Source: Verrucomicrobiia bacterium
GTDB lineage: Bacteria > Verrucomicrobiota > Verrucomicrobiia > Verrucomicrobiales > DEV007
NCBI GenBank assembly: GCA_030425385.1
Contig: JAUIAH010000011.1
Span: 62,001 to 126,000 of the forward strand
Length of the DNA: 64,000 nt
Direction of reading: 5' to 3'
A program made the position numbers and the translations under genes. Under the pieces are notes generated by a model, which saw only the letters and a list, made by a program, of their open reading frames with translations, did no database searches and was not told the DNA's origin. Position 1 is the first letter of the stretch; the number at the start of each line of letters is the position of its first letter. Of the stretch, positions 1,790 through 57,011 are shown one piece after another.

Positions 1790-3403
1790 TTAAAGTGAGC
1801 CCGGCGTGCCGCCGTCTTTGTCTGAAGCTTTCCAGGATGCTGGATCGTTGGTGTAGCTGGCGTCGCGTTTCCGCTCCAAAGAGGGTCCCTCTCCGTCCGC
1901 AGCCTCGGGCCAGGGGGCATCGTCCCGGTAACGGACGGCGTCCACTTCGAGCATGGGGACGACTGTTTCGCCCGTTTCCGCATCGGTGTCTGGAAGATCG
2001 GGGCGCAGCAAGCGGATCCACTCGCCTTTGTTGGAGAGAACGGCTTCTTCCTCCGGGTCTGTTTGGAAGACTTTGACCGCATCGGGAATCTCGTGCCGAA
2101 CGCGAAAGGCTTTGGGATCTGCATTGGTCACGACGGCGACCTCATTCGGCTGCAGCGTGAGTTTCGGAGGGAACGTGAAGCGCCAGCCCGTCATTTGCCA
2201 GGTGTTCTCGGGGTGCATGGGACTGAAGAGTGGCACGGGGTTCTTGGAACGATTCCAGATCTCGACAAACTCTTCCTCCGTTTCGGAATCATCGCCTTCA
2301 GCTGGGTGATACATGACCTCACTGATCACGACGTGCGCTTCACGAGGTCCGGCATTGGCGGCTCCCAGGGTGACGGCACTCTGAGGTGGAAACTGCTCGC
2401 GGCCCGCGCTGTTCAGGTGACGCCCGAAGGACACTCCATTGGCTCCGGCCTTGAATTCGAAACCGTGACTGTAACCGGTTCGCTGCCCCTGGCCATCGGC
2501 GGCGAAGAGATGGATCGCCTCCCCATGAGAACTGAGCGAGAACGCTCTCGCAAAGCGTTCTGCTGGAAGAGCTTCGTTGTTAGCGGGGTTGTCGTCATTA
2601 TCCCCTTTGATGACCAGGTAACCTCCGGCGGGAATCACCGACCCTGACACAATCGCGTATTTCGTGGGTTCATCAGCGGGATCATCCGTGAGGAACCAGC
2701 CACTCACATCCACTGGCGCGTCGGTGGGATTATACAGCTCGATGGCATCAACGTCAGGGAGATCGGTATGTGTGAGGATTTCATTAATCACCACCCCACC
2801 TTCCACCGCACGGTCCCCTGCCCCAGGTGAGCCGCCCTCTGCATTGCTTGCCTGCCAATTGACAGACTGATTCGCTGAAGGGTTCGTTTCTGGCGCGAGG
2901 AGCACGAGAGAGAATCCTAAACCATCGGCACTTTCTGGCCAGGGCTTGCTATCCTTGTAGTTCACACTGACAATTTCCTCACTCTTGCCATCGAGCGTCA
3001 CCTTCTCTCCTGAATTCTTCAAGCTCCCGTCGTAAGCTCCCATGACCCGAGCGCTGCTGCCGTAACGCTTTGCAAACGCCCCTTTGTCTTTCACGAGAAC
3101 CGCGCGTTCTCCCGGTTTGAGTTGAGCAATGCCAGGAAATCGGAAGGCGATCCCCTCGTTGAATTCGCACCCGGCCAAGGAGACGACGTCTTGACTGATA
3201 TTCATGAGTTCGATGAACTCAAAAGCATCCGCGTCATCAAACCCATCAGCGACCTCTGCTTCACTAGGATCCGAAGGATGGTACATGATCTCGGAAATGA
3301 CCACGCTTCCCGGCGTCGCCTCCACCTTCGTTTCTGCGAAAAGCATGCCCGTGCATGTGAGGTGAAGAAATCCGGCGACAACGGATGGGATGAGTCGTTG
3401 CAT
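1790..3403 (-). CDS. Exported protein with three lamin-tail-like domains
   Basis: This 537-residue protein has a hydrophobic N-terminal signal (about residues 1-23, ending near LFAETK). It then carries three successive lamin-tail (LTD) beta-sandwich units. The first opens VVISEIMYHP near residue 34, the second VVINEILTHTDLPDVDAIELYNP near 200, and the third VVISEVMYHP near 360. Typical LTD features recur: FEFIELMN or FVEIWN strands, a GW..F/L turn and a late W-P-E-A/S-ADG segment. LTD proteins of bacteria are mostly secreted or surface-attached; the binding partner is unknown. The whole chain parallels the C-terminal third of the CotH protein encoded just upstream, so it looks like a partial tandem paralogue. 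No PEP-CTERM or other sorting signal is visible. Confidence 0.85.
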   Translation of the reverse strand: MQRLIPSVVAGFLHLTCTGMLFAETKVEATPGSVVISEIMYHPSDPSEAEVADGFDDADAFEFIELMNISQDVVSLAGCEFNEGIAFRFPGIAQLKPGERAVLVKDKGAFAKRYGSSARVMGAYDGSLKNSGEKVTLDGKSEEIVSVNYKDSKPWPESADGLGFSLVLLAPETNPSANQSVNWQASNAEGGSPGAGDRAVEGGVVINEILTHTDLPDVDAIELYNPTDAPVDVSGWFLTDDPADEPTKYAIVSGSVIPAGGYLVIKGDNDDNPANNEALPAERFARAFSLSSHGEAIHLFAADGQGQRTGYSHGFEFKAGANGVSFGRHLNSAGREQFPPQSAVTLGAANAGPREAHVVISEVMYHPAEGDDSETEEEFVEIWNRSKNPVPLFSPMHPENTWQMTGWRFTFPPKLTLQPNEVAVVTNADPKAFRVRHEIPDAVKVFQTDPEEEAVLSNKGEWIRLLRPDLPDTDAETGETVVPMLEVDAVRYRDDAPWPEAADGEGPSLERKRDASYTNDPASWKASDKDGGTPGSL

Positions 3404-3478: not shown

Positions 3479-6400
3479 TCACTCAGTTTCGGGTGACAAC
3501 ACGGGCAGCCTTCCCGGTGTCCCCCCCTCTTTAGGCGATGCCTGCCAACTGAGAGGCTCGTCCGTCACTCCTGCCAGATGCTTGCGCTCTAACGTTCGCC
3601 CCATGCCATCAGCCTCCTCCGGCCATGGCGTACGGTCATTGTAGCGAAGCGAATCCACCGGTACCAACGGCACCCGTTCTTGCCCTTGGCGATCAATCAA
3701 CGGATCGAGGGGGCGCACCAATGTGAGGCGTTCACCCGCATTGCTGAGAGCGCCCTCAAACGGTCCCCACACGTTCACCTCTGCTCCGAGACCGTGCTCG
3801 CGGCGAAAGGTTTCAGGTTCACAGTGCACAATGAGAGCCACTTCCCCCCCCTCCAAGATCACGCCTTGTGGAAAGGCGAAACGCGCACCTTTCAACTCCC
3901 ACACATGCTCGGGATGGGCAGGATCATGTAAGGGAATCGCGCGATCCGTGCGATTCCAAATCTCTACAAATTCCGTGCTTTCGTCAGGATCCGTATCGTC
4001 AGGATGATAGTGCACTTCTGTAAAGAGCACGGGCCCTAGCAAGGGCGCCCCATTTGCCGAACCCAAGGTAGGCTTGCGAATCGCGAACACCTCTTTCCCC
4101 GCAGAGTTCACGGAGCGTCCATAGGCGATTCCCGTAGGCAAGGCATCGAAAGCCACCCCGTGGCTGTAGCCGGTCAAGATCCCCTTGGCATCTGCCGAGA
4201 AGAGATAGACTCCCTCACCGCCCAGCGAACTCAAGGAGAAGGCCTTCCCGAAATAATCTGCCCCTAGCTCTGCATTATTGTCAGAATTCGCATCATCATC
4301 TTCAAGGGCCACCCAGAAACCCTTGGCGGGAAGCACGGTACCAGGGGGGATACGCCATTTGTGAGGCTTCTTGACATCATCTGTGAGATACCATCCCCCA
4401 ATAGCGACCGGTTTCGGCTGCGTGTTATAGATCTCGACAGCGTCTGTGTCTGGCCAATCACTGTTGGTGAGGATCTCATTGATAACCACTCCCGCAAAGC
4501 GTGCGCTCGGCTCGCCTTCTCCCGGAGAACCATGCACCTCGGCGCTCGCTCGCCAGGCGCTGGCCTTCCCAAAGTTCTTCTTCCCTTTGGGATCGATCAA
4601 TGCCAGGGAAAAGCCCAACCCATCCGCACTGCTCGGCCAGGAACCGTCATCTTCATAGCGGAATCGGACAATGGGTTGGCTGTGACTGTCGAGCAAGGTA
4701 AGCCGTTCGCCACCGTTCTTCAGCCCACCGGCGTAAGGCCCTAGCACACGCGTCACTTTCGGATAACGAACGGCAAATGCGCGAGGGTTCTTGGCGAGCA
4801 CGAGGTACTTTCCTGGCTCAAGAATCGCTCCGCGATCCGGGAATTCAAACTGAATGCCATCAATGAAACGCACCTTAGCAAGATCGATCGCCTTACTCCC
4901 GATATTGAGAAACTCAAGGAACTCGAAGGCATCGGCATCCTTCACGCCCATTCGTGATTCCGCTAGGGACACGTCCGGCGGATGATACATGATTTCTGAG
5001 ATGACCAGATTCTCAGCAGACGCGCGTTCCGCTCCTGAGTCTCCGGAGAGAAATGTCAACGCACTCCAGGTCTGGCCCACGCGACTCCGAACCTTTATCA
5101 CCTCGCCAGACTCGGGAGGAGCGAATGATTTCCCGCCCACCACATGCGTCGCGGCTAGCCATGGTTGCAACAGAAACGCCGACGCCCGCGGTCGTAAGCG
5201 TTGGGTTTCGATCGCGAGCACATTCCTCCCTTTCCGCAGCCATTGGGCGTGCTCTCGAAAAGAAATCCATCGCTGGAACGATCGTTCTTCTGAGACTCGA
5301 ACCCGCGTCGGTGTCTCCTTCGCAATCTCCTGACCATTCAGCCACATTGTGTACCCGTCTTCAAATCGCAATCCAGCCTCCAGGTGGACAAGATTCTCCA
5401 GCGACCCTATCACAAAGGCGACACGAACCCTCAGACGATCGCGCTCCGCATCGATGGCGTAGGGATCTTCCGTCTCCGTCTCCCCTCCCAGAGCGCCCTC
5501 TTGCAAACGGACCAAAGGCCAATCATCCTCCTGGAAATCAGGATCTTGCCACTCCTCCATCGCATCATTGACAGAACCCAAAGAGACACGCCCCCACGAG
5601 TCCTCACCAATGAGCACGCTTTCCTGGCATTGCCCCATCATCGTCGTGCGGGAGCCTGCGTCACGCGGATCCATGCCGTTGGTGGTCATGTAAGCTTCGC
5701 CCTCTGGCACGCTCAACCAAGCCTGACCAGAGGTCACCAGGCCTTCCCAAAGACTAGGCGCGGCCACCAGAGACATCAGTGGAGCCAACTCCAAGTGTTG
5801 TTCGGGATCGCCAAAGGCAAAGCGCATGCTTTGAGGCAATTGCTCACGGAAGATGTTCGGTCGACGCTGCAGGTATTCCCTCAAGCGTGCCACCGCTGCA
5901 TACCAATCAGCCTTCGTGCGGGTCTTGCCGCCCAAGGTGTGGCGCCACCGGGCGCTCCCCCACCGCGCCGCTTGCAGGCCGATGACGGGCTCTAACTGAC
6001 GCACACGCGTTTCCAAGCGGCGCAAACAGGCACTGGCGGACAAGGCCCCGCCATCGCGACGGAGCAAGCGTTCCGCGCGATCCGCGAACGCCTCACGATA
6101 AGCGCTCACAGCCATCAATTGCTGATGAATCCATTGCGGGTTGCTATCTTCAAACGCAGCGCCACCCGGCCACGGCCCCAAACGATTGTCCGAGGCTTCG
6201 TGCGGCAAGCCCAAGCTATGCTCGCTATCATGAATGATGAAGCGGAAGCCTTCATCTCCCTCCTGAAGGCGATAGGCGAACCAGTTATTCGGATGCACAT
6301 TATTGAAATAATGTGAGATCGGGGCATCCGCGTTGCCCGTGAAGAGGATGATCATCATGTAATCGATCAGCGCGGGGACATCAAGGTAGACGGGAAGAGC

Positions 6401-7984
6401 ATGATCCCGCGCGCCCGCCAACGTGAGCCCTTGCAATTCCTGATACACCTCCATTCTTGCCTCGCCATCAGGCAAAGCCGCCAACCGATTCACACTTTCC
6501 CAAAGATGTCGCCAGGCTCGCAGATCTCCCGCACGGGAAGCGGTGTGGGTCTCCAGAATCCCGGGCCGGCCGACTTCAACCAAATCCATCCTTTCTGGAT
6601 CGCCCCCGACTTTCGCAGCGACGAAGGCTGCGTTGACTCTTTCATGCGTTTGATAGAGTCCCCAGTAGACGCCATTCAGGAAGAGGTGGACGTAGCGACC
6701 TCTCGTATGAGGCTGTCCGAGAGCGCCCTGGGTGTCGCGCGCGAAGATGTCACGCAAGAAGGTGTTGTCCACGGAACCATTCGAGGCCCAAGAATGGTTC
6801 TGGGGCGATCGCAATCCGAGCTCTCGACAGCTTGCGCGGATCCCCTCTTCGAAGAGAGGCCCCTCGAAAGCCTCGCGCCCGTAGGAGGCTCTCGCAATAA
6901 GGCGAAAGTTGTGTTTCGGAGCTTTCTTGCGACGACTGGCTCCTCCACGGATGCGAATGCCAGCATTCATTTGGAAACCAGTGCTCGGCGATTGGGGATC
7001 GATCCATTCCATCGACACAGGCCGTTCCCACGCGCGGCCCCGCCCGGTCGCGTGGGTGTAGATTCCTTCACGCCATCCTAGCAAATCCCTCACATCCATC
7101 GTCACCGCGATCGAAGGCACGTTGAGCAATCCGCTAGACAGCTCGTCATGCGTCGCCCCTACATTGGCAGCCGCCTCCATCCCATACACCATCTTTTGTC
7201 CTGCGATGAAGGGTGTGGACGGCCATCCGGGAGGAGCTTTCCGGGTGGGTGCCAGAATGTCTTGGGGAAAGAGATAGGTCGCCGTGGTCACACGACTGGG
7301 AAGACATCCCGAGCGATACGCCAAGGCACGCACGACGCTTGTCCCGGTGATCGCGATTGGATGTTCATAGACCGAGCTGGTGTCCGGGTCTGGCAGGCTG
7401 CCATCGGTAGTGTAATAGATGGTCGCCTCTGCGGAAAGTGTCAGTTCAACGGGTGCTGATTGATATCCATGCGGGTGGGAGAAAGTTGGCGGATCGGGCG
7501 CCCACCCCACCGTCGCGCCATTTCTTCTTCCTGGAGACGGCTCTTCAAGAGGGAGCCCCTCTCGACCATCCACACTCACATCCTGAGGAAGGGCCGAGAG
7601 TTTGAGCACATGTCGGTGCGCGCCCATTCGAGATCGGAGATGAATGGTCTCTCCCGCGGCACTCAGTTTGAAAGGCACATGCAGTTCTTTCGCCCCCTCT
7701 GTCGTCGCCCTACCGGAAGCGAAGAGAACGAGGCGCTCACCCGCGCGCACCTTCTGATCCGGTAGAATTACCCAGGGAGACTTGCCCGCTCGAATTTCAA
7801 AGTCGCCGAGATGGATACCTCTCTCAGCCCAGATTTCGATCCAGTCAGGCGTGTCCCCAGCACTATCCTTGAGGGTCGTCCCATTCGAAGACATGACCTC
7901 AGAAAGCCAGAGATCACCACGAGCTACGTATGGTGGCAACAGCGCCAGACCTAACACGATGTTCCAAAGCAAACGAGAAGTCAT
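3479..7984 (-). CDS. CotH-kinase/lamin-tail surface protein
   Basis: This large exported protein has about 1501 residues from the ATG at 7982-7984. That start gives a clean signal peptide (MTSRLLWNIVLGLALLPPYV). The frame extends to a TTG-less upstream ATG at 8107, but that would overlap the divergent gene and bury the signal. Domains in order: an LTD unit (about 25-130), a chitobiase-C-terminal-like unit with YYTTDGSLPDP (about 190), a CotH protein-kinase-like domain (about 280-650) with RIRGGASRRKKAPKHNF and an HDSEH metal/ATP motif near 585-589, an all-beta region, then three LTD units to the C-terminus. CotH enzymes phosphorylate surface or spore-coat proteins. It is divergent from a DUF4956/VTC pair, a known companion set. 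Substrate unknown; the neighbouring LTD protein is a reasonable guess. Confidence 0.85.
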   Translation of the reverse strand: MTSRLLWNIVLGLALLPPYVARGDLWLSEVMSSNGTTLKDSAGDTPDWIEIWAERGIHLGDFEIRAGKSPWVILPDQKVRAGERLVLFASGRATTEGAKELHVPFKLSAAGETIHLRSRMGAHRHVLKLSALPQDVSVDGREGLPLEEPSPGRRNGATVGWAPDPPTFSHPHGYQSAPVELTLSAEATIYYTTDGSLPDPDTSSVYEHPIAITGTSVVRALAYRSGCLPSRVTTATYLFPQDILAPTRKAPPGWPSTPFIAGQKMVYGMEAAANVGATHDELSSGLLNVPSIAVTMDVRDLLGWREGIYTHATGRGRAWERPVSMEWIDPQSPSTGFQMNAGIRIRGGASRRKKAPKHNFRLIARASYGREAFEGPLFEEGIRASCRELGLRSPQNHSWASNGSVDNTFLRDIFARDTQGALGQPHTRGRYVHLFLNGVYWGLYQTHERVNAAFVAAKVGGDPERMDLVEVGRPGILETHTASRAGDLRAWRHLWESVNRLAALPDGEARMEVYQELQGLTLAGARDHALPVYLDVPALIDYMMIILFTGNADAPISHYFNNVHPNNWFAYRLQEGDEGFRFIIHDSEHSLGLPHEASDNRLGPWPGGAAFEDSNPQWIHQQLMAVSAYREAFADRAERLLRRDGGALSASACLRRLETRVRQLEPVIGLQAARWGSARWRHTLGGKTRTKADWYAAVARLREYLQRRPNIFREQLPQSMRFAFGDPEQHLELAPLMSLVAAPSLWEGLVTSGQAWLSVPEGEAYMTTNGMDPRDAGSRTTMMGQCQESVLIGEDSWGRVSLGSVNDAMEEWQDPDFQEDDWPLVRLQEGALGGETETEDPYAIDAERDRLRVRVAFVIGSLENLVHLEAGLRFEDGYTMWLNGQEIAKETPTRVRVSEERSFQRWISFREHAQWLRKGRNVLAIETQRLRPRASAFLLQPWLAATHVVGGKSFAPPESGEVIKVRSRVGQTWSALTFLSGDSGAERASAENLVISEIMYHPPDVSLAESRMGVKDADAFEFLEFLNIGSKAIDLAKVRFIDGIQFEFPDRGAILEPGKYLVLAKNPRAFAVRYPKVTRVLGPYAGGLKNGGERLTLLDSHSQPIVRFRYEDDGSWPSSADGLGFSLALIDPKGKKNFGKASAWRASAEVHGSPGEGEPSARFAGVVINEILTNSDWPDTDAVEIYNTQPKPVAIGGWYLTDDVKKPHKWRIPPGTVLPAKGFWVALEDDDANSDNNAELGADYFGKAFSLSSLGGEGVYLFSADAKGILTGYSHGVAFDALPTGIAYGRSVNSAGKEVFAIRKPTLGSANGAPLLGPVLFTEVHYHPDDTDPDESTEFVEIWNRTDRAIPLHDPAHPEHVWELKGARFAFPQGVILEGGEVALIVHCEPETFRREHGLGAEVNVWGPFEGALSNAGERLTLVRPLDPLIDRQGQERVPLVPVDSLRYNDRTPWPEEADGMGRTLERKHLAGVTDEPLSWQASPKEGGTPGRLPVLSPETE

Positions 7985-8213
7985 GGCGCGATGCACGAAC
8001 ATGAACGAGACCGACTGAGAACGCACGAGAATTCTTTCCCATCCGCTGTCCGCTGCCCTCCGCTGCCCATCCATTCGCAATAGGGACTTGACGCCCTTCG
8101 CTTCCACGGCGCAGATAGCAGTTCAGAACCGGAGCATCCTTTTGGAAGACGATTCAGGAACAGAGATTCAGGAGCAACTCGACCTCACCGAAGCCGATCA
8201 GGTATCGGCGGCC

Positions 8214-8912
8214 ATGGAGGGCACGGATGCGAGCGCCGCCGCCTTTGATTGGCCTTTGTTAGGGAATTTCCTCATCCTGATGGCGGTGTGCGCGTTCGTC
8301 GCTTATCTCTTGGAATGCGTTTACAAACGCTGCGGCTATTCGCTCTCCAATCGTTCGGACTTCAGTCGCAACTTTGTCATGCTGTCCTGTGCCACGATGA
8401 TGATCGTCACCATCGTGAAATCCTCACTGGCACTCTCGTTAGGATTGGTGGGTGCTCTGTCGATCGTCCGTTTCCGTGCCGCCATCAAGGAGCCGGAAGA
8501 ACTCTGTTTCCTCTTCTTAGCCATCGGCATTGGTCTTGGCTTTGGCGCTAGTGTTGGGCTCGGTTTCCTCCGGCCAGAGCCGTATATTCCCATTGTCTCC
8601 TTCGCTTTCCTCACAGGCGTTCTCTTTCTACGCAGACGCTTCCGCAAGAAGGACACGGGAGGCGACTATCATGTGCTCGTGGCGAGCGAACAGCCTTCTC
8701 AGGTGGGGCACGATCAGATTCAGAAGGTGATCTCCTCGCACAGTCAAGACGCGGCTCTCAAGCGACTCGATGAATCGCGTGCCATCATGGAAGCGAACTA
8801 CCAGGTGCACTTCGAAAGCCCCGATCAACTGGAAAGGTGTCGTCAAGCCCTGCTCGCACTGGGCGACCCGATCTCCGTGAGCATGATGGATAACCGTGGC
8901 CTCGGAAACTAA
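8214..8912 (+). CDS. DUF4956 family membrane protein
   Basis: This integral membrane protein has 232 residues from ATG 8214; a TTG at 8088 would add 42 polar residues and overlap the divergent CotH upstream region. Four hydrophobic helices are visible (first at WPLLGNFLILMAVCAFVAYLL, then around NFVMLSCATMMIVTIVKSSLALSLGLVGALSIVRF, LFLAIGIGLGFGASVGLGF and IPIVSFAFLTGVLFL). The family signature SLGLVGALSIVRFRAAIKEP lies between helices and a soluble C-terminal domain follows. DUF4956 proteins occur next to VTC-domain polymerases and CotH kinases, exactly as here, but their biochemical role is not established. The last 17 bases overlap the VTC gene, implying translational coupling. Confidence 0.8.
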   Translation: MEGTDASAAAFDWPLLGNFLILMAVCAFVAYLLECVYKRCGYSLSNRSDFSRNFVMLSCATMMIVTIVKSSLALSLGLVGALSIVRFRAAIKEPEELCFLFLAIGIGLGFGASVGLGFLRPEPYIPIVSFAFLTGVLFLRRRFRKKDTGGDYHVLVASEQPSQVGHDQIQKVISSHSQDAALKRLDESRAIMEANYQVHFESPDQLERCRQALLALGDPISVSMMDNRGLGN

Positions 8913-9603
8913 CACTTCCGCGACCGGCGACCCCACTCATTTCCGCTACGAACGGAAATTCACGACGACCTGGCCCTATCGGGATGTCATCCGCCTGATC
9001 AAAGGCAACACCGCTCATTTCCGAGAAATCTATGAGGAGCGCTACATCAACAATATCTATCTCGATGATCTCCACTTCTCTAACTACTTCGCCAACGATG
9101 ACGGCATTCGCGACCGCCTCAAGACGCGGATCCGCTGGTATGGCAATCTGTCAGGCGAGATCAACCGTGCGGCACTTGAGATCAAGGTGAAGCGTGGATG
9201 GGCAGGCGAGAAGCCGACCTTTCGCCTGGCACCCTTTCACCTCGGACCAGCCTTCAGTTCGGCCGATGCCCAACGGCTCTTTCGGCGCTCGGACTTGCCT
9301 GGGTGGATCCACCAGCGCGTGCTTCACGAGACGCCCACCCTCATCAACCGCTACGCTCGGCGCTATTTCCTCTCGTCCGATGGCCACTGTCGGCTCACCA
9401 TCGATCGCGATCTGCGCTTTTATCGCTGTCCCTTTCCTGGCGCCTTTGTCCCGCGTTTTCATGAACCTCGCGCGACCCTGATCATCGAGATGAAGTATTC
9501 CTGTGTTGGCGATCTTGGCATCGATGCTATTTCCAATGATTTCCGATTCCGCATGTGCAAGTTCTCCAAATACGCGACCGGCGTGAACTTGCTCTACCGC
9601 TAG
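8896..9603 (+). CDS. VTC-domain polyphosphate polymerase-like protein
   Basis: This 235-residue protein starts at GTG 8896, inside the end of the DUF4956 gene. It has the triphosphate-tunnel fold seen in the catalytic subunit of eukaryotic vacuolar transporter chaperone. The tunnel strands are visible as alternating charged motifs: RYERKF (17-22), RLKTRIRWYG, ALEIKVKRG, NRYARRYF, LTIDRDLRFY and LIIEMKYS. In VTC proteins these basic and acidic residues bind polyphosphate and metal and drive synthesis from a nucleoside triphosphate. With DUF4956 and a divergent CotH kinase it forms a recurrent bacterial module. Whether the product is polyphosphate or another phosphorylated polymer cannot be told from sequence. 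Confidence 0.8.
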   Translation: MASETNTSATGDPTHFRYERKFTTTWPYRDVIRLIKGNTAHFREIYEERYINNIYLDDLHFSNYFANDDGIRDRLKTRIRWYGNLSGEINRAALEIKVKRGWAGEKPTFRLAPFHLGPAFSSADAQRLFRRSDLPGWIHQRVLHETPTLINRYARRYFLSSDGHCRLTIDRDLRFYRCPFPGAFVPRFHEPRATLIIEMKYSCVGDLGIDAISNDFRFRMCKFSKYATGVNLLYR

Positions 9604-9639: not shown

Positions 9640-10716
9640 ATGATCGCAGGCACCATGCCCAAAGTACGTTTGTCAGGCCAAGTTGAAGGTCGTGGAGATC
9701 CCGCTCGCGAAGAACGCGCACTCCTTCTCTATCTGTTGTTTGCGGGCGGATGGGATATTGCCAATGCCAATGGCGATCAAACCGTGACTCTCGGCAACGT
9801 CCAATCCAAGATCGCCCATGCAGATGCGTTCGTCTTTACCCATGGATCCACCTTGGAAGAGCTCTTCAAAGCCGTGTCCATCTTTGTCGGCTACCAAACG
9901 CTCGATGCGGATCTATCGGGAAAACCGACAGTGATCCTGAATGGCGATCGTTCCTGGGACACCTTCTTCGGGCTGCTGGAACATCTTCACGAGCTGGGTA
10001 CTATCCGCCAGGACTACCGCGATTTCCTCCATCCGGTGAAGTCACCTAACAGTGTCCTGAACAAGCTTGAGAGCGTGCGCTCTAGCGGATTACCAGATGC
10101 GGGCCGCCATCACCATGGTGAAGACACGGATGTCAGCGCAGTGCGATCTCACGAAACTCCCTTGCCGGATGGTCATCGCGGCAATGTCTGTGTCTTCTGC
10201 TCCGCTTCGATTGAGGATCCTCAATACTTGGAGGATGGATACACCCTAGGGAAATGGCTCGCCGATGCCCACTTGGGCTGTGTTTCTGGCGCAGGCAAGA
10301 CCGGCGTCATGGGCGAAGTGGTTCGAGGCGCGGTCGACGCTGGCGGCTGGACGGGAGGATCCAATGTCCCACACATCATCGAGCTGGAAGGCTTGCCCGA
10401 GGGCCTCTCCTCCTTCTGGTTGCGTCCTGACATCTACACACGCATGGAGATCATGATTGAGAAATCAGATGCCTTTGTCGCCTATCCCGGAGGTGCTGGC
10501 ACTGTCCAAGAGATCCTCGCGCTTCTCCTCATGAAACAGCACGGAGACCCCTTGATGAAAGGCAAGCCCGTGGTCATCTTCGATCGCCTGGATGCTAGAA
10601 CTGGTCAGCGCTTCTGGCGCCCCTTCATCGACTTGCTGCGTAAGAATTGCGCCCCGGACGAGTTTGTGGTCGTGAATGATTTGAAAGACGTCATTCCTGC
10701 CACGGGTCTGACATAG
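9640..10716 (+). CDS. Two-domain LOG/TIGR00730-like protein
   Basis: This 358-residue protein has a C-terminal half (about 180-350) that carries the LOG (cytokinin nucleoside monophosphate phosphoribohydrolase) Rossmann fold. It shows VCVFCSAS, GAGKTGVMG (217-225) and the signature PGGAGTVQE (283-291). The usual RK before the signature reads RM (YTRMEIM). The N-terminal half (about 1-150) resembles a degenerate second copy: it has DAFVFTHGSTLEELFKA where PGGxGTxxE would be and keeps the following strand (GKPTVILNGD). Ordinary LOG proteins are about 190-230 residues, so this is a fusion or internal duplication. LOG enzymes release free base from nucleotide 5'-monophosphates; activity here is uncertain because the motifs are altered. 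It lies 36 bases after the VTC gene. Confidence 0.75.
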   Translation: MIAGTMPKVRLSGQVEGRGDPAREERALLLYLLFAGGWDIANANGDQTVTLGNVQSKIAHADAFVFTHGSTLEELFKAVSIFVGYQTLDADLSGKPTVILNGDRSWDTFFGLLEHLHELGTIRQDYRDFLHPVKSPNSVLNKLESVRSSGLPDAGRHHHGEDTDVSAVRSHETPLPDGHRGNVCVFCSASIEDPQYLEDGYTLGKWLADAHLGCVSGAGKTGVMGEVVRGAVDAGGWTGGSNVPHIIELEGLPEGLSSFWLRPDIYTRMEIMIEKSDAFVAYPGGAGTVQEILALLLMKQHGDPLMKGKPVVIFDRLDARTGQRFWRPFIDLLRKNCAPDEFVVVNDLKDVIPATGLT

Positions 10717-10754: not shown

Positions 10755-13700
10755 ATGCTCCGATCCCATGGCCTGCTCTGGACGCTTTGGGCACTGCTTT
10801 TCCTAGTGCCCGCGGGCTCATCTGTGGTCGCGATCGAGCCCGGTCCCAAGGCGACGCGTTGGCATCGTGCTCTCGTCCAGCGCCCCGCTCCCGGTCCCCT
10901 CTTCGATCGCTTTCTGCAGGCTTGGTTGGAAACAGATTCTCGCCCGAATCTTGAAGCGTTTCTCACGGAACAGGCCAATGCCCAGGAAGGCGCTGCCCAC
11001 GACCTCCTGCTGGCCTATTTCCATGCTTCTGAAGGAAACGACCTTCAAGCCCTGACATCATTTCAGAAGGCGCTCCACACCCAGCCTAACAATGCCCGCG
11101 CCTGGCTGGAGAAAGCCAAGATCGAGGCACGCATGCTTCATTTCGAGGGCGCCTTGGCAGATCTGCAGCAGGCTCGCGAAGCGCACCCTTCGGCGACGCT
11201 CGCGATCGACATCGCCCAACTTGAAGGGCAATGCCACGTGCGCCTGGGCCAAACCGAAGCCGCCCTGGCATGTTGGCAGGCCTTGTTAGACCAGCACCCG
11301 GAAGATCTCACTCTTCGTGAAGATCTCATTGACCTTCAGGCGAAGGAAGGGCTCTTGGAAGACGCGATCACCTCTGCCAAACAGCTCATCGCCCTCACCA
11401 AAGACCCCTACGCCCGGGTGCGCTCACATCTTCTCTTGAGCGACCTCTACGTCGAGGCAGACCAGCTCGACAACGCCGTTGCTACTGCCAGGGAAGCGCT
11501 CACTCAAACAGGCATGGGATCTTGGTTAGAGACTGAGATCCTTGCCCGATTCGATCAATGGTATCGTCACACGAGAGATCTCAATGGTCTACAAGCTCTT
11601 CTTCAAGAACTCGTCCTCACGCATCCCCAGCGCCTCGATCTCCGCCAACGTTTCGCTACTCTGCTAGCCGAGCAAGGCCAAGAAGACGACGCCATGCGTG
11701 CTTATGAAGCACTCCTCGCGCGCACGCCCGGCGAGCGGTCTTATCGGGAAGCCTACATCACTCTGTTGATCTCCTTACAAAGACACGATGCTGCCGTCCG
11801 CCAATTGCGCGGACTGATGAAGCTCTTTCCAGACGATCCCGAACTGAAGATCCGTGCGGCTTCTCTTTATCATACCCTTGGCAATCGCGAGGAAGCGCGC
11901 ACTTCTTTAGAGCGCGCCCTAGCAACGTCAGATCAGAGTGCTTACACCTTCCGTCGCGTGGCTCGACTCATGGAAGATTACGCCCTCACTGACGCGGCCT
12001 CCGTAGTCCATGACCAGTGGATCCATGCTTTTCCCAATGACCGGTCTGCTAGAGAAGCGAAAGCCACCTTTCTCCTCCGGCAGAAACAAGCGGAACCCGC
12101 CATGGCGCTCTGGCGATCGCTCGCAGACGATGCCACTGTCCAGGATTTGCTTGGGATCTCCCGCACTTTGCAAACCTTTAACGAAAGCGTCAGTGCGCTT
12201 GATATCCTCCGCAAGCGGCTACCCGCCTTTGCCGAGGAGCCCCGTTTCTTGAATGCCTTGTGTCAGCTTGCCATGGCTGCGAAACGCCCTCAAGAGGCGC
12301 TGCCATGGGCACTCCGATGCGTCCAATTGGCGCAAGCCGAGAACGCCCTCGACGCCGCCATCGACCAATGGCTCCGCCTCGCTCAGCAAGCGGGCGCGAA
12401 ACACGGTCAACGCGATGCACTGATGTCCATGGGCGATCGCTCTCTCAATGAGACCTGCCTCCTTGCACGATTGTTCGAGGACATCGGAGACAGCGCCGGC
12501 GCGCACGCTCTCCTCGAAGCGTTGGCCCCCAGCACCGCGAGTGAGAAGGCACGTTTGCTAGGGCAACGGATCCGACTCTTGACGAAACGCCAAGATTGGT
12601 TGGGCGCGGCGACGCTGGCCGAATCGGCCGTGACGAAGATGGACTCCCCTCGGGCCACCGACGTCAAGAACCTAGCAGAACTCTACGAGAAAGCTCACGC
12701 CTGGGATCACGCGCTCCGATGGACGCGTGAGTGGAAAGAGAGATCGCCCGCGATCGCCCACCCATGGCTTGCGGAAGCGAAGGTGCTCACCGCGCTTGGA
12801 CGCCCCTCCGAAGCGGCAACCATCCTGCGTCAGGCAGCTCTTCGCTTTCCTCAAGACGAAGTCCTACAGGCCACCTGGGCCCGACATTTGGCCAAGGAGA
12901 ACCAATGGGATGAGGCCGTACGAGCCTTCTGGAGGCTGTTTGATAAGGCGACCGAACCCTCACAGAAGCTTCAATGGATCCGAGAACTGGCCTCCGCGGC
13001 GAACCATCAAGGAACGCTAGAAGCCGTGGTTCAAAGACTCGCGAGCGAACGTGGAAACACCGTCTATGCCCTCGCGCTGGCTGAGGTCTACCGTATCTCT
13101 GGAGACGATGAGAAGCGGCGCGCGGCCTTGCGCAGAGCTTCTCAGCTGCAACCTGCAGATGCTAGCATTCTACTAGAATTGGCTCGCATCGAAGAAGCCA
13201 GCGGCAATGTCGACGCCGCCTTGGCGACTTTAGAAGAGGCGGCCAAACGAGACCCCACCGATCGCACGCGACGACAGATCGCCCATTTGCAGCTACGGAA
13301 AGGGAACGAGGACACTGGATTTGAGATCCTCCAATCGCTCGCCGGAGGCCCTACCATGGGCCCGCGCGAAGCGGAGGCTCTCGCCATGACGATGATCGGT
13401 CGGAATCACGCCACACGCGCGGTCGATTTCCTCCGCCCCTTTGTCGAGAGCCATCCCAACGACTATCGTTTGCGCTATCTTCAGGCAGTGGCGCACGAGG
13501 AGAGCGGTCACTTCACCGCCGCTGTCGACGCCTTTCTCAGTGTTCTTCAGATTCGTGACGAAACTCTGACTCCCCTGCCCAATAGCCAGGCAAGCGCATG
13601 GGAAGCCATCGCTTCCGAGGTTCCACGCGGCACCTTGGCGTTGCTTCGCCAAACTGAGACCGACACTTTCCGATCCTATCGTTATCGTCAACATGCGGCT

Positions 13701-16700
13701 ACAGGCAGCACCATCGCCCTTCCCGACGATGTCACTCATATTGCCAAGCTCACCCTTCCTCATCTATCAGCGTTGCGTTTCGCGATCAGCAAGGAAGCGC
13801 ATGCTCACCTCCTCCAGACGCTGACTCAGATGGGCTATCACTATCCCGAGCTCGTCCTCGAAAGCGCGTCTCTCGATCGCCCCGCGCTCGATTTCGGCGA
13901 CCTCCTTCGAGAGCACGACAACGAAGCGATGTTAGGGTATTGGGTCCTCCGTGGCATGCCCCATGATTGGTCATCCGAGCGTGCGATAAAGGCATTTGAG
14001 CGCTTCGAAGATCGTTATCCCTCCCTAGCCTTGCAGGTCGCCTTCTATCCCGATGCCCTGCAGCATGCGAAGACGCGTGCCGCACTCTTCAAGCGAGCAT
14101 GCGCGCTGCTGGGAGGCATCGACCATCCCACGCACGACCTGGCATTGGCAGCAGATCGCGCCTTGTCACAGCACGCGCCATGGAATGGCAATCTTGGCTA
14201 TTTCAGCGATGGGGAGGAGAGCACTCTCACCGATATCTTAATGGCATGGTATCATGATTCGAAAGAACCCGCCCCCGTCTACTTCACCTCTCTAGCGCTT
14301 TCCCTCAGAGAACGGGAAGATCTCACAGAGTTCCTTGAAGTATTCGAAATCATGATCACTCGGCAGCAGGGGCACGGGAAACTCGCATCTTCTCGCGCGA
14401 AACCGCTCGATTGGGACCGCCTGCTTTCTCCACTCTCCTTTCCTCCTCCCCTAACATCGATTCCAGAGACGACGATTGCTTGGGTGCTTGAGGCCTCTCC
14501 CTCGCCCGACCGTTTATCACAGTACCTGGACCAAGTTACGGATCCCGTCTTGCGCTGCCTGCTTGCCACGCATGCAGAGGGACGCTTGCAGGCAGCAATC
14601 ACCCGACTCCTCGAGCATGAGCCACCCCCGCTCGATGCCTACCTTCTCGCTGCCGCTCATGCCACCGAAAGGGAAGACTTTCAGAAGTCCGTGACCCTGC
14701 TAGAGCAGGCCATTCTCTTTCCGATGGAAAGGCCCCTCCGCCTGCGACTTGACGGAGCCATTGTCGGTAGTGCCTTGGCGTGCCAAGACCGAGATTCGGT
14801 CCTCGCTAAAGGAAGAGAGGCGCTTGTTAGACTTCGAAACCACGCTCATGATGCCTTGGGACGCCTGGCGCTTGAGGAAGCCATGACAGCACTCGGCATG
14901 CATGAGGAAGCGCAACAATGGGCTCGCCAAACGGACACCCAGACGAACCAAGCGCTGCCTGGTACGAGCCTCCCTACCGCGTCCACAGGACAGATCGTGG
15001 CCCTGATCAACAGGGGGCACCCTCAACGGGCCGTCCGCGTCGCCGCTCAGGAACTGACGCAACTCGCCAAGCAGTTTCTGCAACCACATCAACTCTCTTC
15101 GAGTGCCTCTGAAGCGGCCCCGATCATCGACCCCATCCACGCTCACGGACTCACCAAATCCCTTCTCACCTTGATCGATCCCGGTCCTTCACCAGGCATC
15201 GATCGCTTGAGAACCTACGCCGCGATCTGTCAGCTTCTGGGCCAAGACGACCGCGCTCAAGAGCTATATGGCAGCTTGCTAGACCAACATCCTCAAGATG
15301 ACGCGGTCCGCATTCGTCTCTTTCTCCTCATTGCTCAAGACGACCCCCAGGCAGCAGCACCTCTCCTCAAGGCACTCGCCCCTCGTTTCATTGATCCTTT
15401 GGGTGTCAGCATTCAACAGCTGTTCAGTGACACGCCCACCCTGCGCAAGCGCATTGCTCTCATTGACGCTCTTGTCCCATTCCTTGGTGCGCTTCACCAC
15501 GAGCCACAACCGATTGACACGCAGTGGGTGGTCGATCTAGCTGATCAGTTCGCGCAAAGTCACTATGAAGACGGGGTCGAATGGGCACCGATTCACCATC
15601 GCTATCTCGATCAGCCACACGAGCTAGGTGCTGAAAGGTTGCGTGCTTATACCGCCCTTTGCAAGGTGATGTTAGACATCCCGCAGATCGCCTTGGAAGG
15701 CTTCCGCCGCTGGGGTGCCGACCGATTGCGAGAAGGTGCCTCTCTCGCTGACCTCGAATCCATGGCTCTCGACGCCTTACTCAAGCACCGTTCCCGACCC
15801 GGACAAGCCTTTCATCACCACCGTGATGCTGATCAGGTGATCTTTCCAGATGCAGACTTCGTGCTCCTCGAAACGGCCTATCATCGTGGCGAATTTGCCC
15901 AGCTTCGGACGTCATGCCTTGCTGAATTGCGCCGGCAGGGGCGCGAGAGCGCGGCGCGTTCACTGCAAGCACAGATCGATCTGTTGACCTGTGAGGATGC
16001 GCAGTTCCCGGAGAATGCGGCGGCATTTCTTACCGACGCGCCTAGGCAACTCCGTCTCCGCGGGAATGAGGACCACCCTGCCGTGCGACTCATCAGCCTC
16101 TGGAATCTTCGCCAGAGCGAAGCGGATATCACACCCTTGCTCCTAGCAGAGATCGAGCAGTCACTGAAGCTTGGAGAACTCTCGCTGGCAATCGTCGAGT
16201 ATGCGCTGGCTCTCCAGGAGCGGGATCGGCCTCACGAGGTAGCGGCATGGCTCGACGCCTGCACCGCTCGTTTCCTAGGCCCCACACCCCAACGCCTCGC
16301 CTTCCTAACAACACACTACGATCATGGCCGATGGCAACGCAACACGGCGAATGGGCGCATTCATCTCTTCATGGATCTGATCGAATGGTTAGGGAAATAC
16401 GAATCTTTGGCATTTGAGGCCGCCAACCTTCATGCGGCCTATCACATCGAGAATCTCCGACCACACGCGTCTCCTTTGGAAGCATTCCTGACCTCGCATT
16501 CGAATCTGCATCCCGAGCGCCTCACGACTCTCTTCCGTCATTCGCCCTGGCTAGGCGGCCTTGAGACCTTTCGGTTCTATCGTCTCAACACCTACGATCG
16601 CGAAACGACTTTCCTCGCCAGCCTCGCTCACGCCCTCAGTGATACGCAACAGACAGCGTCGAGAGCAGCAGTCGACGCTCTCGTCCAATCAATCTCTCCT

Positions 16701-19016
16701 CCCACCTTCGGTTCCCAACTCACTCTCGCTTGTCTCGCAGACGACGAGAAGCGTATCGCTGAGATCCTTGGTGAGCACTCGGCAGCGATCCTCGCTTTGC
16801 CGCCCTCTCAGAGAGAGATGTTTGGCGTCTTCGTTAGGCAACAGTTCTCGGAACGCGCTCTTCTTTCAGCCACGGAGCAGAGCTCCTTGCTGAGAGCGCT
16901 CTATGATACGCACCCCGTTCAGGGCCTCGATTTGTTCATCGAAAGGGCTGCCGCTGGTCATTTCACGAACTACCACCTTGCCGATTTGCTTCGGCCCAGA
17001 TTCCTCACACTCTTTCGAAGTCCTCAGAAGCCAACCGAGACGCTTTCTCAAGCCCATAGACTCTTTCAAACAACCATAGAGCTCTACGAAAAGCAGCTTC
17101 AATCTCACGGAACGCCACGCCGCCCCGACCAGAGTCATCCCGCCGCCGAGATGCTGCAAACGCTCGCGGGCATCGCCAGTCATGACGATCTTCCTCTGGC
17201 GATACCGTTTATTCTGCAGTCTCTATCATCATCTGATCACGCCAAAGGGATCTCGATCACATTGCACGAATTCGCCATTCGAGACCTCGGCACCGCGCTG
17301 CGCCATCATCTCCAACTTGAAGCCGGCGACTTCTCCAATGTGGCCGACCTCCACCGTGTGCTCTCTCAGCTCTTTGGGGACGTGTCCTTCAGCCATCTTC
17401 ACGAGAGCCTTCACGCCATCCTAAAGGAGGCTCCTCGCGAGTGGCTTGCTCAGCAGTCTACGAAAGATGCTGTGGCCATGGAGATGCTGATGGCGATCGA
17501 TCTCTACGCAGAGGCGATGGAGCGACGCCAACAGGCTATGAGCTACTATGCGCGCAAGCTTGCTGACCGCACGCGCCCGTTGGGTTGGCGACTCGCCCTT
17601 GCACAGCGATTGCCACACCATCACCTGGATGATTCTCATCGACTGATAGTGGGGTCATTGTTAGCCGATGCTTGGGCCTCCGGGGCCGTCGTTCTCCCCT
17701 CCCAGACTCAGACCCTTCTCGCCGCCTTCATGAATGTGTCGAGCCGCGAGGACCAGTGGACAAGCCTCATGGAGAGACTCGCAGAGACGTGGCGAACCCA
17801 AGACAAGCGGTGGCTGCGTGCGCACCGGCTCGCCAGCATTCATAGCACTGACACCATCAATCAGCTCCTCTCTCTAGCACTAACGTCTTCTTCTGATGCC
17901 TTGCTCCAGCATCTGGCCCGCTGGCATGCGGCAGCACTCACGGACGACATTGGCACCGTGGCGCTGCTGATTGCCCATGGGAAACCGGCGCTTGCGGCCA
18001 GTCTCTTCGAGAAAGGGTGGACGGCAATGAGCGGCGACCCTGGTCGAGGGATACGCCACTACACGTCGGCGTTGGAGAAACAACTACCCACCTTCTTACA
18101 ACATCTCCCTACGCAGGATCTGCGACACTACGCGAACATCATCCTTCAGGCGTTCCCAGATGCACCCGATAAAGCGGGTTCTCTTTCTCAAACCGCTCGA
18201 TTGGATGACCTCGCTGAGACACTCGCCAAGACCTCATTTCGACGTCGTGATGTGATGGAGCGAGCCCTCAGCGTGCTCAGTCGCCAGGACCACGTCAGCG
18301 CCCAGTTGCTGCCAGTCTTCCACGAAATTCTTAGTGGACTTCATCTCGCTGCGTTGAACAGAGCCTATCATCTTCCTCAACGCGAAACAAAGTTACGCCT
18401 GTTCCGCGATCATGTGAGAATCGCTGCCCAGTATGGCGATCCGACTCCATTCCTTCATTCTCTTGAGGCGCTATCTTCGGACGAGCACGCCAACGGCGCT
18501 TATGCCTTCGAGGAAACACACACTGCTCTCATGAGGGCCTTTCACGCCGGCGTCATACCGTTTCTGCAAAGTGGTCCGGAAAACGCGGCCCTTCGTCCCT
18601 ACCTCCCCGCCGTGAGGCAGATGGGTTTTGCCAATCAGAGGGAACCCGATTGGGAGCGTTACCTGATTAGCCTGGTGATTCATTGGCAGACAGGCGAACG
18701 GGCGGCACTCGATCACCGGCTCGCTTCGTCCCCTGCCCCCTTCCAGCAAGCCCTCGCCGAAGCAATGGCTCCAGAGAACGTGTTTCCCATTCTACGCCCC
18801 TTGTTTCCCAAGACGGCATCGACTGTCGATCGGGTGCGATTCGCGCGCGATCTCTTTCCAAATGGGAATCTGCTAGAAGATCCAGTGATCTTGGAGCCAT
18901 TCGTGTCCCGCGACGAACTCCTTTCCGATGCCGACGCCCTCATCCGGGCTTTCCCGGATGGGGGGCGCACGACCGTGCTTCTCAAGAAGCTGGAAGAGAC
19001 CTCTCAGAATCGATAG
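10755..19016 (+). CDS. Giant exported TPR-repeat protein (2753 residues)
   Basis: ATG at 10755 gives an N-terminal hydrophobic signal or anchor (LLWTLWALLFLVPAGSSVVA, about 8-27). From about residue 75 to about 950 the chain is a long superhelix of tetratricopeptide-like repeats, for example the units LLAYFHASEGNDLQALTSFQKAL, AWLEKAKIEARMLHFEGAL and LASLYHTLGN-type helices. The remaining roughly 1800 residues are still almost wholly alpha-helical, rich in Leu, Ala, His and Arg, but the repeat consensus fades. No enzymatic motif was found. TPR arrays of this size usually act as periplasmic or outer-envelope scaffolds. The frame is intact over 8.2 kb without frameshift, so the length is real. 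The specific function is unknown. Confidence 0.8.
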   Translation: MLRSHGLLWTLWALLFLVPAGSSVVAIEPGPKATRWHRALVQRPAPGPLFDRFLQAWLETDSRPNLEAFLTEQANAQEGAAHDLLLAYFHASEGNDLQALTSFQKALHTQPNNARAWLEKAKIEARMLHFEGALADLQQAREAHPSATLAIDIAQLEGQCHVRLGQTEAALACWQALLDQHPEDLTLREDLIDLQAKEGLLEDAITSAKQLIALTKDPYARVRSHLLLSDLYVEADQLDNAVATAREALTQTGMGSWLETEILARFDQWYRHTRDLNGLQALLQELVLTHPQRLDLRQRFATLLAEQGQEDDAMRAYEALLARTPGERSYREAYITLLISLQRHDAAVRQLRGLMKLFPDDPELKIRAASLYHTLGNREEARTSLERALATSDQSAYTFRRVARLMEDYALTDAASVVHDQWIHAFPNDRSAREAKATFLLRQKQAEPAMALWRSLADDATVQDLLGISRTLQTFNESVSALDILRKRLPAFAEEPRFLNALCQLAMAAKRPQEALPWALRCVQLAQAENALDAAIDQWLRLAQQAGAKHGQRDALMSMGDRSLNETCLLARLFEDIGDSAGAHALLEALAPSTASEKARLLGQRIRLLTKRQDWLGAATLAESAVTKMDSPRATDVKNLAELYEKAHAWDHALRWTREWKERSPAIAHPWLAEAKVLTALGRPSEAATILRQAALRFPQDEVLQATWARHLAKENQWDEAVRAFWRLFDKATEPSQKLQWIRELASAANHQGTLEAVVQRLASERGNTVYALALAEVYRISGDDEKRRAALRRASQLQPADASILLELARIEEASGNVDAALATLEEAAKRDPTDRTRRQIAHLQLRKGNEDTGFEILQSLAGGPTMGPREAEALAMTMIGRNHATRAVDFLRPFVESHPNDYRLRYLQAVAHEESGHFTAAVDAFLSVLQIRDETLTPLPNSQASAWEAIASEVPRGTLALLRQTETDTFRSYRYRQHAATGSTIALPDDVTHIAKLTLPHLSALRFAISKEAHAHLLQTLTQMGYHYPELVLESASLDRPALDFGDLLREHDNEAMLGYWVLRGMPHDWSSERAIKAFERFEDRYPSLALQVAFYPDALQHAKTRAALFKRACALLGGIDHPTHDLALAADRALSQHAPWNGNLGYFSDGEESTLTDILMAWYHDSKEPAPVYFTSLALSLREREDLTEFLEVFEIMITRQQGHGKLASSRAKPLDWDRLLSPLSFPPPLTSIPETTIAWVLEASPSPDRLSQYLDQVTDPVLRCLLATHAEGRLQAAITRLLEHEPPPLDAYLLAAAHATEREDFQKSVTLLEQAILFPMERPLRLRLDGAIVGSALACQDRDSVLAKGREALVRLRNHAHDALGRLALEEAMTALGMHEEAQQWARQTDTQTNQALPGTSLPTASTGQIVALINRGHPQRAVRVAAQELTQLAKQFLQPHQLSSSASEAAPIIDPIHAHGLTKSLLTLIDPGPSPGIDRLRTYAAICQLLGQDDRAQELYGSLLDQHPQDDAVRIRLFLLIAQDDPQAAAPLLKALAPRFIDPLGVSIQQLFSDTPTLRKRIALIDALVPFLGALHHEPQPIDTQWVVDLADQFAQSHYEDGVEWAPIHHRYLDQPHELGAERLRAYTALCKVMLDIPQIALEGFRRWGADRLREGASLADLESMALDALLKHRSRPGQAFHHHRDADQVIFPDADFVLLETAYHRGEFAQLRTSCLAELRRQGRESAARSLQAQIDLLTCEDAQFPENAAAFLTDAPRQLRLRGNEDHPAVRLISLWNLRQSEADITPLLLAEIEQSLKLGELSLAIVEYALALQERDRPHEVAAWLDACTARFLGPTPQRLAFLTTHYDHGRWQRNTANGRIHLFMDLIEWLGKYESLAFEAANLHAAYHIENLRPHASPLEAFLTSHSNLHPERLTTLFRHSPWLGGLETFRFYRLNTYDRETTFLASLAHALSDTQQTASRAAVDALVQSISPPTFGSQLTLACLADDEKRIAEILGEHSAAILALPPSQREMFGVFVRQQFSERALLSATEQSSLLRALYDTHPVQGLDLFIERAAAGHFTNYHLADLLRPRFLTLFRSPQKPTETLSQAHRLFQTTIELYEKQLQSHGTPRRPDQSHPAAEMLQTLAGIASHDDLPLAIPFILQSLSSSDHAKGISITLHEFAIRDLGTALRHHLQLEAGDFSNVADLHRVLSQLFGDVSFSHLHESLHAILKEAPREWLAQQSTKDAVAMEMLMAIDLYAEAMERRQQAMSYYARKLADRTRPLGWRLALAQRLPHHHLDDSHRLIVGSLLADAWASGAVVLPSQTQTLLAAFMNVSSREDQWTSLMERLAETWRTQDKRWLRAHRLASIHSTDTINQLLSLALTSSSDALLQHLARWHAAALTDDIGTVALLIAHGKPALAASLFEKGWTAMSGDPGRGIRHYTSALEKQLPTFLQHLPTQDLRHYANIILQAFPDAPDKAGSLSQTARLDDLAETLAKTSFRRRDVMERALSVLSRQDHVSAQLLPVFHEILSGLHLAALNRAYHLPQRETKLRLFRDHVRIAAQYGDPTPFLHSLEALSSDEHANGAYAFEETHTALMRAFHAGVIPFLQSGPENAALRPYLPAVRQMGFANQREPDWERYLISLVIHWQTGERAALDHRLASSPAPFQQALAEAMAPENVFPILRPLFPKTASTVDRVRFARDLFPNGNLLEDPVILEPFVSRDELLSDADALIRAFPDGGRTTVLLKKLEETSQNR

Positions 19017-50800: not shown

Positions 50801-50997
50801 GCACGGAGCATTTAGAGTCGATTCTTGAGTGCGTGCGTGGCATCCTTGGAGAAGGCCAGGTTGAGTTGCACGCACCCAAGCTGCGCTTTCCTACCGGCCA
50901 ACATCTTCTTGATTGGGTGGCTGATGTTCATACTGAGATCAAGCCGGGCGAATTAGAACAACAACCATCGGATACGGACGATCATGGAAACCACTAG
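47887..50997 (+). CDS. DUF499 anti-phage-associated ATPase
   Basis: This 1036-residue P-loop ATPase is of the DUF499/COG1483 type. Walker A is QAMGGGKTHN (73-82) and Walker B LLILLDE (165-171). The ATPase module covers about 40-430, followed by a long helical region. The C-terminus adds a small chitobiase-C-terminal-like beta unit with YTTDGSDP (859-866), then an unassigned tail. DUF499 ATPases recur with DUF1156 methyltransferases, DUF3780 proteins and PLD/SNF2 helicases in anti-phage islands, as here. The ATPase likely loads or remodels the complex on DNA. ATG 47887 is the natural start. The stop overlaps the DUF3780 gene by 14 bases, so expression is coupled. Confidence 0.92.
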   Translation: MKSIKDLCSPRKSTFDQSRRDVVLDIMDLIENKIVPETFFAENYVTHGMKDLLVSGARRLAGKSDQSTFVLSQAMGGGKTHNMITLGLLAKHPEFRKEVLPDTQHTNLGAARVIGFTGRESDAPLGIWGSLAEQLGKKDLFKDYYSPLQAPGTTAWINLLKGEPLLILLDELPPYFNAAKSKSIGNSDLSEVSGTALANLLTAVSKEELSNVCVVIADLKATYGEGSAQLNKALDNFQNEVGRSAMTLEPVGLNTNELYHILRTRIFETLPARTDIEQTAQAYSQAVKDAKQMDITHASPEEFAKQLTDSYPFHFSIKDLYARFRENPGFQQTRGLIRLMRVLVARLWESGQAGNLGLIHPYDIDLNDEATKSEIRAINAKLENAISHDIASGGVSVAENLDKNRPGNSSDAQDAAKLLLVSSLANVPGATLGLNASEVVSYLCRPGRDVSRLLKDVLGVLKTKAWYLHANREGKLFFKNTENLIAKVHTTAESYSREVSVKELRAFLESTFEPKLKHCYQEVAALTAIDEIKLAADKVTLLISEPSPASGGLSDDLRDFWEDTPFKNRIAFLTGDRLTMSTLVENAAELKAVASVLEEMAAEKIPDSDPQFVSAQEMHDAIRLRLLSAARESFTRLHYPGGDNALLIADFLMNFSDNNYNGEKQIQEALAGKQKFTEDIDSSTFRKKCEQRLFTQQVMPYAEIKKRAAMNPKWQWHHASALDNLKNRMILEDQWREDGGYIDKGPFPAPSTEVRVQVLRQDEDTGVATLRITPVHGDIVHYEIGSSPVTTASAKVDDLQAFDTSELRLSFLAVDSSGAHETGKPSQWTNKIILKSRTFQQGDDKMCELQSAPKIPILYTTDGSDPRTSGGTYDAPFLVPQGTVCILAVAQKNQVSSEVQRIDIDWSKKEGVSVDPSLPVLWKRSHKLSSTQETYQFLGLLKKFGASAPGCGLTVGEKRWIDVKTEASVALSTEHLESILECVRGILGEGQVELHAPKLRFPTGQHLLDWVADVHTEIKPGELEQQPSDTDDHGNH

Positions 50998-51634: not shown

Positions 51635-51641
51635 CATTACC

Positions 51642-52370: not shown

Positions 52371-52373
52371 CGG

Positions 52374-52838: not shown

Positions 52839-52841
52839 CAT

Positions 52842-53258: not shown

Positions 53259-53276
53259 GTTTGGCAATTTCTCGTC

Positions 53277-56327: not shown

Positions 56328-56390
56328 TTTGCCATCGGCATTCTGGCGTGATTTCATTGATTTCTGGCGCGTTTCCGCTACCCTTTGAGG

Positions 56391-57000: not shown

Positions 57001-57011
57001 TCGCTCAGCCA

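Follow-up and report, generated by a model that had tools for sequence, protein, structure and literature searches.

A CotH-kinase, DUF4956 and VTC gene block in a Verrucomicrobiia genome and its recurrence in other bacterial phyla

Genes for a CotH-type kinase, a DUF4956 membrane protein and a VTC-type polyphosphate polymerase lie side by side in a genome of the Verrucomicrobiia. Do they form one functional unit and, if so, what would it do? The window analysed here is the whole stretch of 64,000 nucleotides, which is part of an 8.0-Mb draft genome (working label G000) with profile matches to 62 CotH, two VTC, two DUF4956, one PPK1 and one CYTH proteins. A sequence-only reading had grouped the three families at 3479-9603, with the CotH gene divergent from the other two. 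The open reading frames (ORFs) and Pfam families are as claimed, and the grouping is confirmed as an observation. The divergence is equally real by ORF positions and strands. The features of the locus are:

1790-3403, minus strand: LTD-only, secreted-looking protein with three LTD domains, the kinase part absent (Pfam, congener comparison)
3479-8107, minus strand: surface protein with CotH-kinase and LTD domains, the longest ORF opening with GTG at 8107 (ORF and Pfam)
3512-5011, minus strand: three C-terminal LTD domains of the CotH protein, at 3512-4036, 4076-4495 and 4520-5011 (Pfam/HMM)
5858-6961, minus strand: CotH kinase domain, with the equivalents of PKA D166/N171/D184 kept in GNADA, PNNW and HDSE (profile/alignment)
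7274-7450, minus strand: Fn3-associated/CHB_HEX_C domain of the CotH protein (Pfam, converted from residues 220-278)
7631-7915, minus strand: weaker N-terminal LTD-like domain of the CotH protein (custom HMM only)
8003-8087, no strand: short intergenic gap separating the starts of the divergent CotH and DUF4956 genes (ORF positions and promoter scan)
8088-8912, plus strand: DUF4956 membrane protein (PF16316, E 5.3e-13)
8896-9603, plus strand: VTC-type polyphosphate polymerase domain (PF09359, E 3.5e-22, 79.5 bits, curated cut-off 23)

The DUF4956 and VTC ORFs overlap by 17 nt, as they do in three congeners (4/4 genomes). A promoter scan of 8003-8087 gave no convincing sigma-70 match and nothing above chance. 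Elsewhere in the window, a LOG-like gene with an additional N-terminal stretch (9640-10716) is followed by a gene for a 2753-aa TPR protein (10755-19016). Co-directional surface-polysaccharide genes occupy 22414-42758 and encode an ABC-2/Wzt transporter, many glycosyltransferases and an O-antigen-ligase-type Wzy_C protein. A candidate anti-phage set, with a DUF499 ATPase, a DUF1156 methyltransferase and a PLD-helicase by PADLOC models, lies at 47887-59726.

Loss of the tunnel residues from the VTC protein would have spoken against a polymerase. They are kept: K21, R78, R80, K97, R155, R166, E198, S224 and K225 are invariant in a 45-sequence alignment. In a profile alignment R78 and R80 align with Vtc4 R264 and R266; K21, K97, R155, R166, S224 and K225 also align with Vtc4, and E198 would correspond to Vtc4 E426. 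Vtc4 R264, R266 and E426 are the residues that, in the passages available, were mutated in PMC9911596. Yeast VTC subunits are the nearest structures to the model (Z 18.5, rmsd 2.6, 205 aligned residues), whereas the best CYTH enzyme reaches Z 13.6, a ranking that rejects a generic CYTH phosphatase. The window VTC protein is thus probably a phosphate-polymer-making enzyme, as predicted from its sequence and model. It shares with the eukaryotic VTC complex (Vtc4/Vtc3/Vtc1) the TTM polymerase fold, the tunnel residues and a membrane partner. It differs in that no SPX domain was found in the window protein and in that its DUF4956 partner resembles ACT/MgtC proteins over the portion covered by the structure search.

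The DUF4956 protein is modelled with about four transmembrane helices followed by an ACT-like domain (residues about 192-270), and its membrane part carries a highly conserved stretch, ...GLVGALSIVRFRAAIKEPEE. R128, R130 and K134 make up an invariant motif. Its sequence profile matched no PDB chain. In a Foldseek search, which tested mainly the ACT part, the MgtC C-terminal domain was the second match; by this search the model is MgtC/ACT-like and does not resemble a solved VTC channel. Translocation of polyphosphate would be a putative function of this protein.

The CotH ORF matches PF08757 (E 6.3e-24, 85.5 bits) and, in three stretches, PF00932 (LTD). Its likely start is at about 7984-8002, judged from the signal-peptide-like beginning MTSRLLWNIVLGLALL..., and the claim of an exported CotH kinase is borne out to the extent that the protein looks exported and its kinase triad is intact. 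Four LTD units had been proposed on this chain. Three are found by Pfam; the fourth (7631-7915) is weaker and was detected with an HMM built from the neighbouring LTD protein, and the orthologue at L034 has four by Pfam. The kinase profile matches the Bacillus spore-coat kinase structure 5JD9 (E 9.9e-37). The domain aligns with this kinase (5JD9/5JDA) at full length, with the catalytic Asp, Asn and Asp all present. In contrast to Bacillus CotH, the window protein is an exported-looking LTD protein of 1542 aa with a His at the position of the adenine-sandwiching Trp. For B. cereus CotH, the available passages of PMC12189002 name the D166/N171/D184 equivalents and an adenine sandwich of Tyr142 and Trp245. 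In our alignment the window protein has His for Trp245 and no aromatic residue for Tyr142; the Trp is kept in 47 of the 61 other CotHs of the window genome.

The neighbouring LTD-only protein was considered as a natural substrate of the kinase. This is weakened by two congeners, which have a whole second CotH-LTD gene, full-length, at its position. The window protein shares 65-68% identity with the last ~500 aa encoded by that gene. Its kinase part (the protein now spans 1790-3403) was most simply lost in the window genome, judging from this comparison. As the counterpart of the C-terminal end of such a second gene, the LTD-only protein need not be a CotH substrate.

Does the grouping recur? 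A single scan with the VTC alignment yielded 65 loci from many phyla, annotated with HMMs built for this analysis. Class A comprises the 48 loci nearest in score (L043-L090), a boundary set by score order; in a VTC tree L060 and L090 fall outside the class A side with weak support. Within 5 kb of the VTC gene, 31 of the 48 have both CotH and DUF4956, three CotH only, four DUF4956 only and ten neither. CotH fragments of fewer than 100 model positions were dropped from these counts, so that L045 is scored as CotH-less though the N-terminal part of a CotH can be seen where its contig breaks off. In the 28 class A loci whose sequence extends at least 5 kb to either side, both partners are present in 21, CotH only in none, DUF4956 only in two and neither in five (L073, L077, L078, L079 and L089, from Phaeodactylibacter and other Bacteroidota). 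The trio therefore recurs in congeners and in other phyla, in agreement with the claim that these families co-occur in bacteria as a conserved module. The genes usually run DUF4956-CotH-VTC or CotH-DUF4956-VTC, all in one orientation (32 same-strand cases in class A); a divergent CotH sets the window genus apart. In the remaining 17 loci (class B), VTC-DUF4956 mostly stands without CotH.

The window genome itself has a second, class B-like VTC-DUF4956 pair (C73, about 104141-106900; L002 5054-7856). An HlyD-type protein follows it, a polyketide-synthase-like gene lies beside it, and dnaA, assigned by sequence reading, is nearby. The VTC type of this pair is found across the family, mostly without CotH, and some VTC is present in 31 of 74 genomes. 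A second, window-type VTC is present in all four genomes of the genus.

Several modules carry extra genes or domains. Nine Bacteroidota modules labelled Saprospiraceae or Chitinophagales have an additional gene, in one case a contig-edge fragment, with a CYTH domain (for example L064:6640-7542), an assignment made by Pfam on L064 alone (E 4e-8). The eight visible N-termini of these proteins show a signal-like hydrophobic stretch followed by ESEYK or ENEYK, which we take to be the ExExK motif. The window block has no CYTH gene. Two Chloroflexota DUF4956 proteins have an N-terminal signal-like stretch and a 3-keto-disaccharide-hydrolase/lectin-type domain. The module CotHs of L039, L048 and L083, all three scanned outside the window genus, carry beta-helix domains, in place of which the window CotH has LTDs. 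By their sequences, the signal-bearing CYTH genes and lectin-like DUF4956 fusions point outside the membrane.

The CotH partners have diverse relationships. The presence of 62 CotH matches in one 8-Mb genome, nearly all in ORFs of 400-2500 aa, is an unusually large expansion. A tree built from 106 CotH domains places the window protein among the LTD-type CotHs of its own genome (8 rows, support 100), with the other module CotHs in separate groups. By this placement, the window CotH is a paralogue from the 62-member local expansion and not the usual CotH of the module. A single origin of the VTC-linked CotHs is rejected (p-AU 2e-19 with 38 class A CotHs, the window and congener CotHs included, forced into one clade), in a quick tree where long branches meet and with the tested group named after the first tree was seen. 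On this phylogeny, VTC-DUF4956 took different CotH partners across lineages, the partner having been replaced. Another CotH of module type in this genome (C47, L119), placed by the tree with those of L055, L058 and L059, was rejected as VTC-linked: neither genomic VTC lies on that contig, and its neighbours are, by sequence reading, a histidine kinase/regulator-like pair and others.

The catalytic Asp column also varies. The 61 other CotHs of the window genome have Asp (55), Glu (4) or a gap (2), and those of the window genus have Asp in 5/5. Among 40 CotHs from VTC loci of both classes, 19 have Asp, 19 His, one Thr and one Asn. The His-type CotHs (L050, L060, L062-L066, L068-L071, L074, L080-L083, L086, L088 and L090) form one large branch with records from Bacteroidota, a Peptococcaceae, a Calditrichota and an Uhrbacteria, within which the column reads Asp in L048 and Thr in L046. 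In L050 an Asp directly precedes the His, at a place where the alignment is not beyond doubt.

We tentatively favour, at close to an even chance, the explanation that the block is one unit in which polyphosphate is made inside, passed outward by DUF4956 and used outside with CotH. Such a unit would build or modify the cell surface by phosphate chemistry. VTC would polymerise the gamma-phosphate of ATP into polyphosphate at the cytoplasmic face. DUF4956 would be its membrane partner and would pass the chain through the inner membrane by way of a conserved basic membrane motif, and its ACT-like domain may sense a ligand. The exported CotH-LTD protein would act outside on or with polyphosphate, and could phosphorylate or decorate LTD or glycan surface material. 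Since CotH partners come from several clades, we read this as a need for some CotH; re-recruitment of a CotH is expected if one is needed. The sequence-only reading had proposed that DUF4956 and VTC make or translocate polyphosphate and that CotH phosphorylates or anchors surface proteins. Its recurrent module, tunnel residues and exported-looking CotH stand, and the polymerase activity, polyphosphate export and surface action of CotH are what we infer. Several observations count against the favoured explanation. With PPK1 also in the genome, polyphosphate synthesis does not in itself require VTC. VTC occurs without partners in 5/28 loci and DUF4956 without a recognised CotH in 2/28. The MgtC/ACT-like DUF4956 model and the missing CYTH gene of the window block also weigh against it, as does SIR_1593, the VTC gene of a streptococcal locus, for whose deletion the available passages report no aggregation defect, unlike for the DUF4956 and CotH deletions (PMC12345266).

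That locus suggests an alternative that we consider possible, although on the unlikely side: the trio would assist or regulate the export of an exopolysaccharide in the manner of the streptococcal Pel loci, with DUF4956 and CotH tuning the amount and surface retention of the polymer and polyphosphate serving as a local signal or energy store. In the parts of these papers available to us, CotH, polyphosphate-polymerase and DUF4956 genes are described in Gram-positive Pel loci (Whitfield et al. 2020, PMC7112168), and the trio is SIR_1592-1594 in the S. intermedius Pel locus, where deletion of DUF4956 or CotH alters Pel level and aggregation and no aggregation defect is reported for deletion of SIR_1593 (PMC12345266). 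C. perfringens NELoc-2 is likewise seen to list VTC-domain and CotH genes together (PMC2879425). The Pel set (cotH-PPP-DUF4956(-DUF4832)) resembles the window in having the same three families clustered, with a secreted CotH, a membrane DUF4956 with an ACT domain and a cytoplasmic polyphosphate-polymerase domain. The beta-helix domains on module CotHs, the lectin domains on DUF4956 and the polysaccharide cluster 13 kb away (22414-42758) would also fit. However, the window belongs to a Gram-negative Verrucomicrobiota, in whose genome neither PelG nor PelF was found, and its CotH is divergent, carries LTDs and belongs to a different lineage from that of most module CotHs. PelG was found in 0/20 module-bearing genomes and PelF in 1/20, by a weak match, and beside the block in the congeners there is no recurring polysaccharide gene. 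Because of the PelG and PelF counts we regard the trio as a more general device; it is more general than Pel loci. Its presence outside them counters the statement, in the available text of PMC12345266, that the syntenic arrangement is not found elsewhere. The trio in Gram-positive Pel clusters is thus already known from the passages of PMC7112168 and PMC12345266. New are the local paralogy of the window CotH, module CotHs that are not one clade, the Asp-to-His change and the CYTH gene in nine modules.

With 62 CotHs in the genome, could this one lie here by accident, the sole unit being DUF4956-VTC? A random gene of the window genome has a CotH within 5 kb with p about 0.086, so the window adjacency alone is weak evidence. 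The origin of the window CotH in the local LTD-CotH expansion rather than among the usual module CotHs, and its opposite strand against 32 same-strand class A cases, also favour chance. The congeners (G050, G051 and G052, publicly labelled Verrucomicrobiales or Verrucomicrobiaceae) argue otherwise. The order CotH2-CotH1 <-> DUF4956-VTC is identical in G051 and G052, and the contig of G050 begins inside CotH, with the CotH N-terminus visible at its edge. Identity to the window is 80-83% for VTC and 67-76% for DUF4956 in the three congeners; for CotH, which only two of them show in full, it is 54-55%. The congener ORFs flanking the block, compared with all window ORFs and a further 9 kb leftward (2 kb of it overlapping the window), had no window match except other CotH-type proteins; the flanks are all different. 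Genomes of other phyla have the trio too, and some of these contain one or two CotHs in all. Twelve chosen module genomes have 1 to 25 CotH matches each, and in two of the 12 (G075 and G083) the sole match sits at the module; these genomes were picked from module-positive loci, and a chance product over the 12 is therefore not used as evidence. Retention of the block in three congeners with changed flanks, together with the trio in other phyla, is real evidence for a unit, and we consider a chance neighbour unlikely.

It is very improbable that DUF4956-VTC serves cytoplasmic phosphate homeostasis in an MgtC-like manner, with no exported product and CotH merely co-regulated: the second-ranked MgtC match, the ACT-like sensor domain and the lack of a recognised CotH in most class B modules and 7/28 class A loci favour it. 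Against it, the pair is repeatedly linked with an exported protein, taken from several CotH clades, and with an exported CYTH enzyme.

Within the favoured explanation of a surface-directed polyphosphate unit, a more specific possibility is that exported polyphosphate is the phosphoryl donor of CotH outside, where there is no ATP. It would accommodate the varied CotHs and, in the Bacteroidota/Bacillota branch (19/40 CotHs from VTC loci), the change from Asp to His; the CYTH enzyme would clear leftover chain. We hold this to be distinctly unlikely as it stands. A search of the literature for extracellular kinases that use polyphosphate as donor gave no match, and of eight papers matching CotH with polyphosphate only PMC12345266 and PMC11677781 concern these families, by their titles and passages; neither result proves absence in print. 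The authors of PMC7821199 describe, in the passages available, the source of ATP for coat phosphorylation as unanswered. A polyphosphate-making and possibly exporting module beside an exported kinase-fold enzyme makes the question of the phosphate donor testable. If polyphosphate is indeed the donor, the module would be a polyphosphate-fuelled extracytoplasmic phosphotransfer system, with an exported CYTH enzyme of polyphosphatase type.
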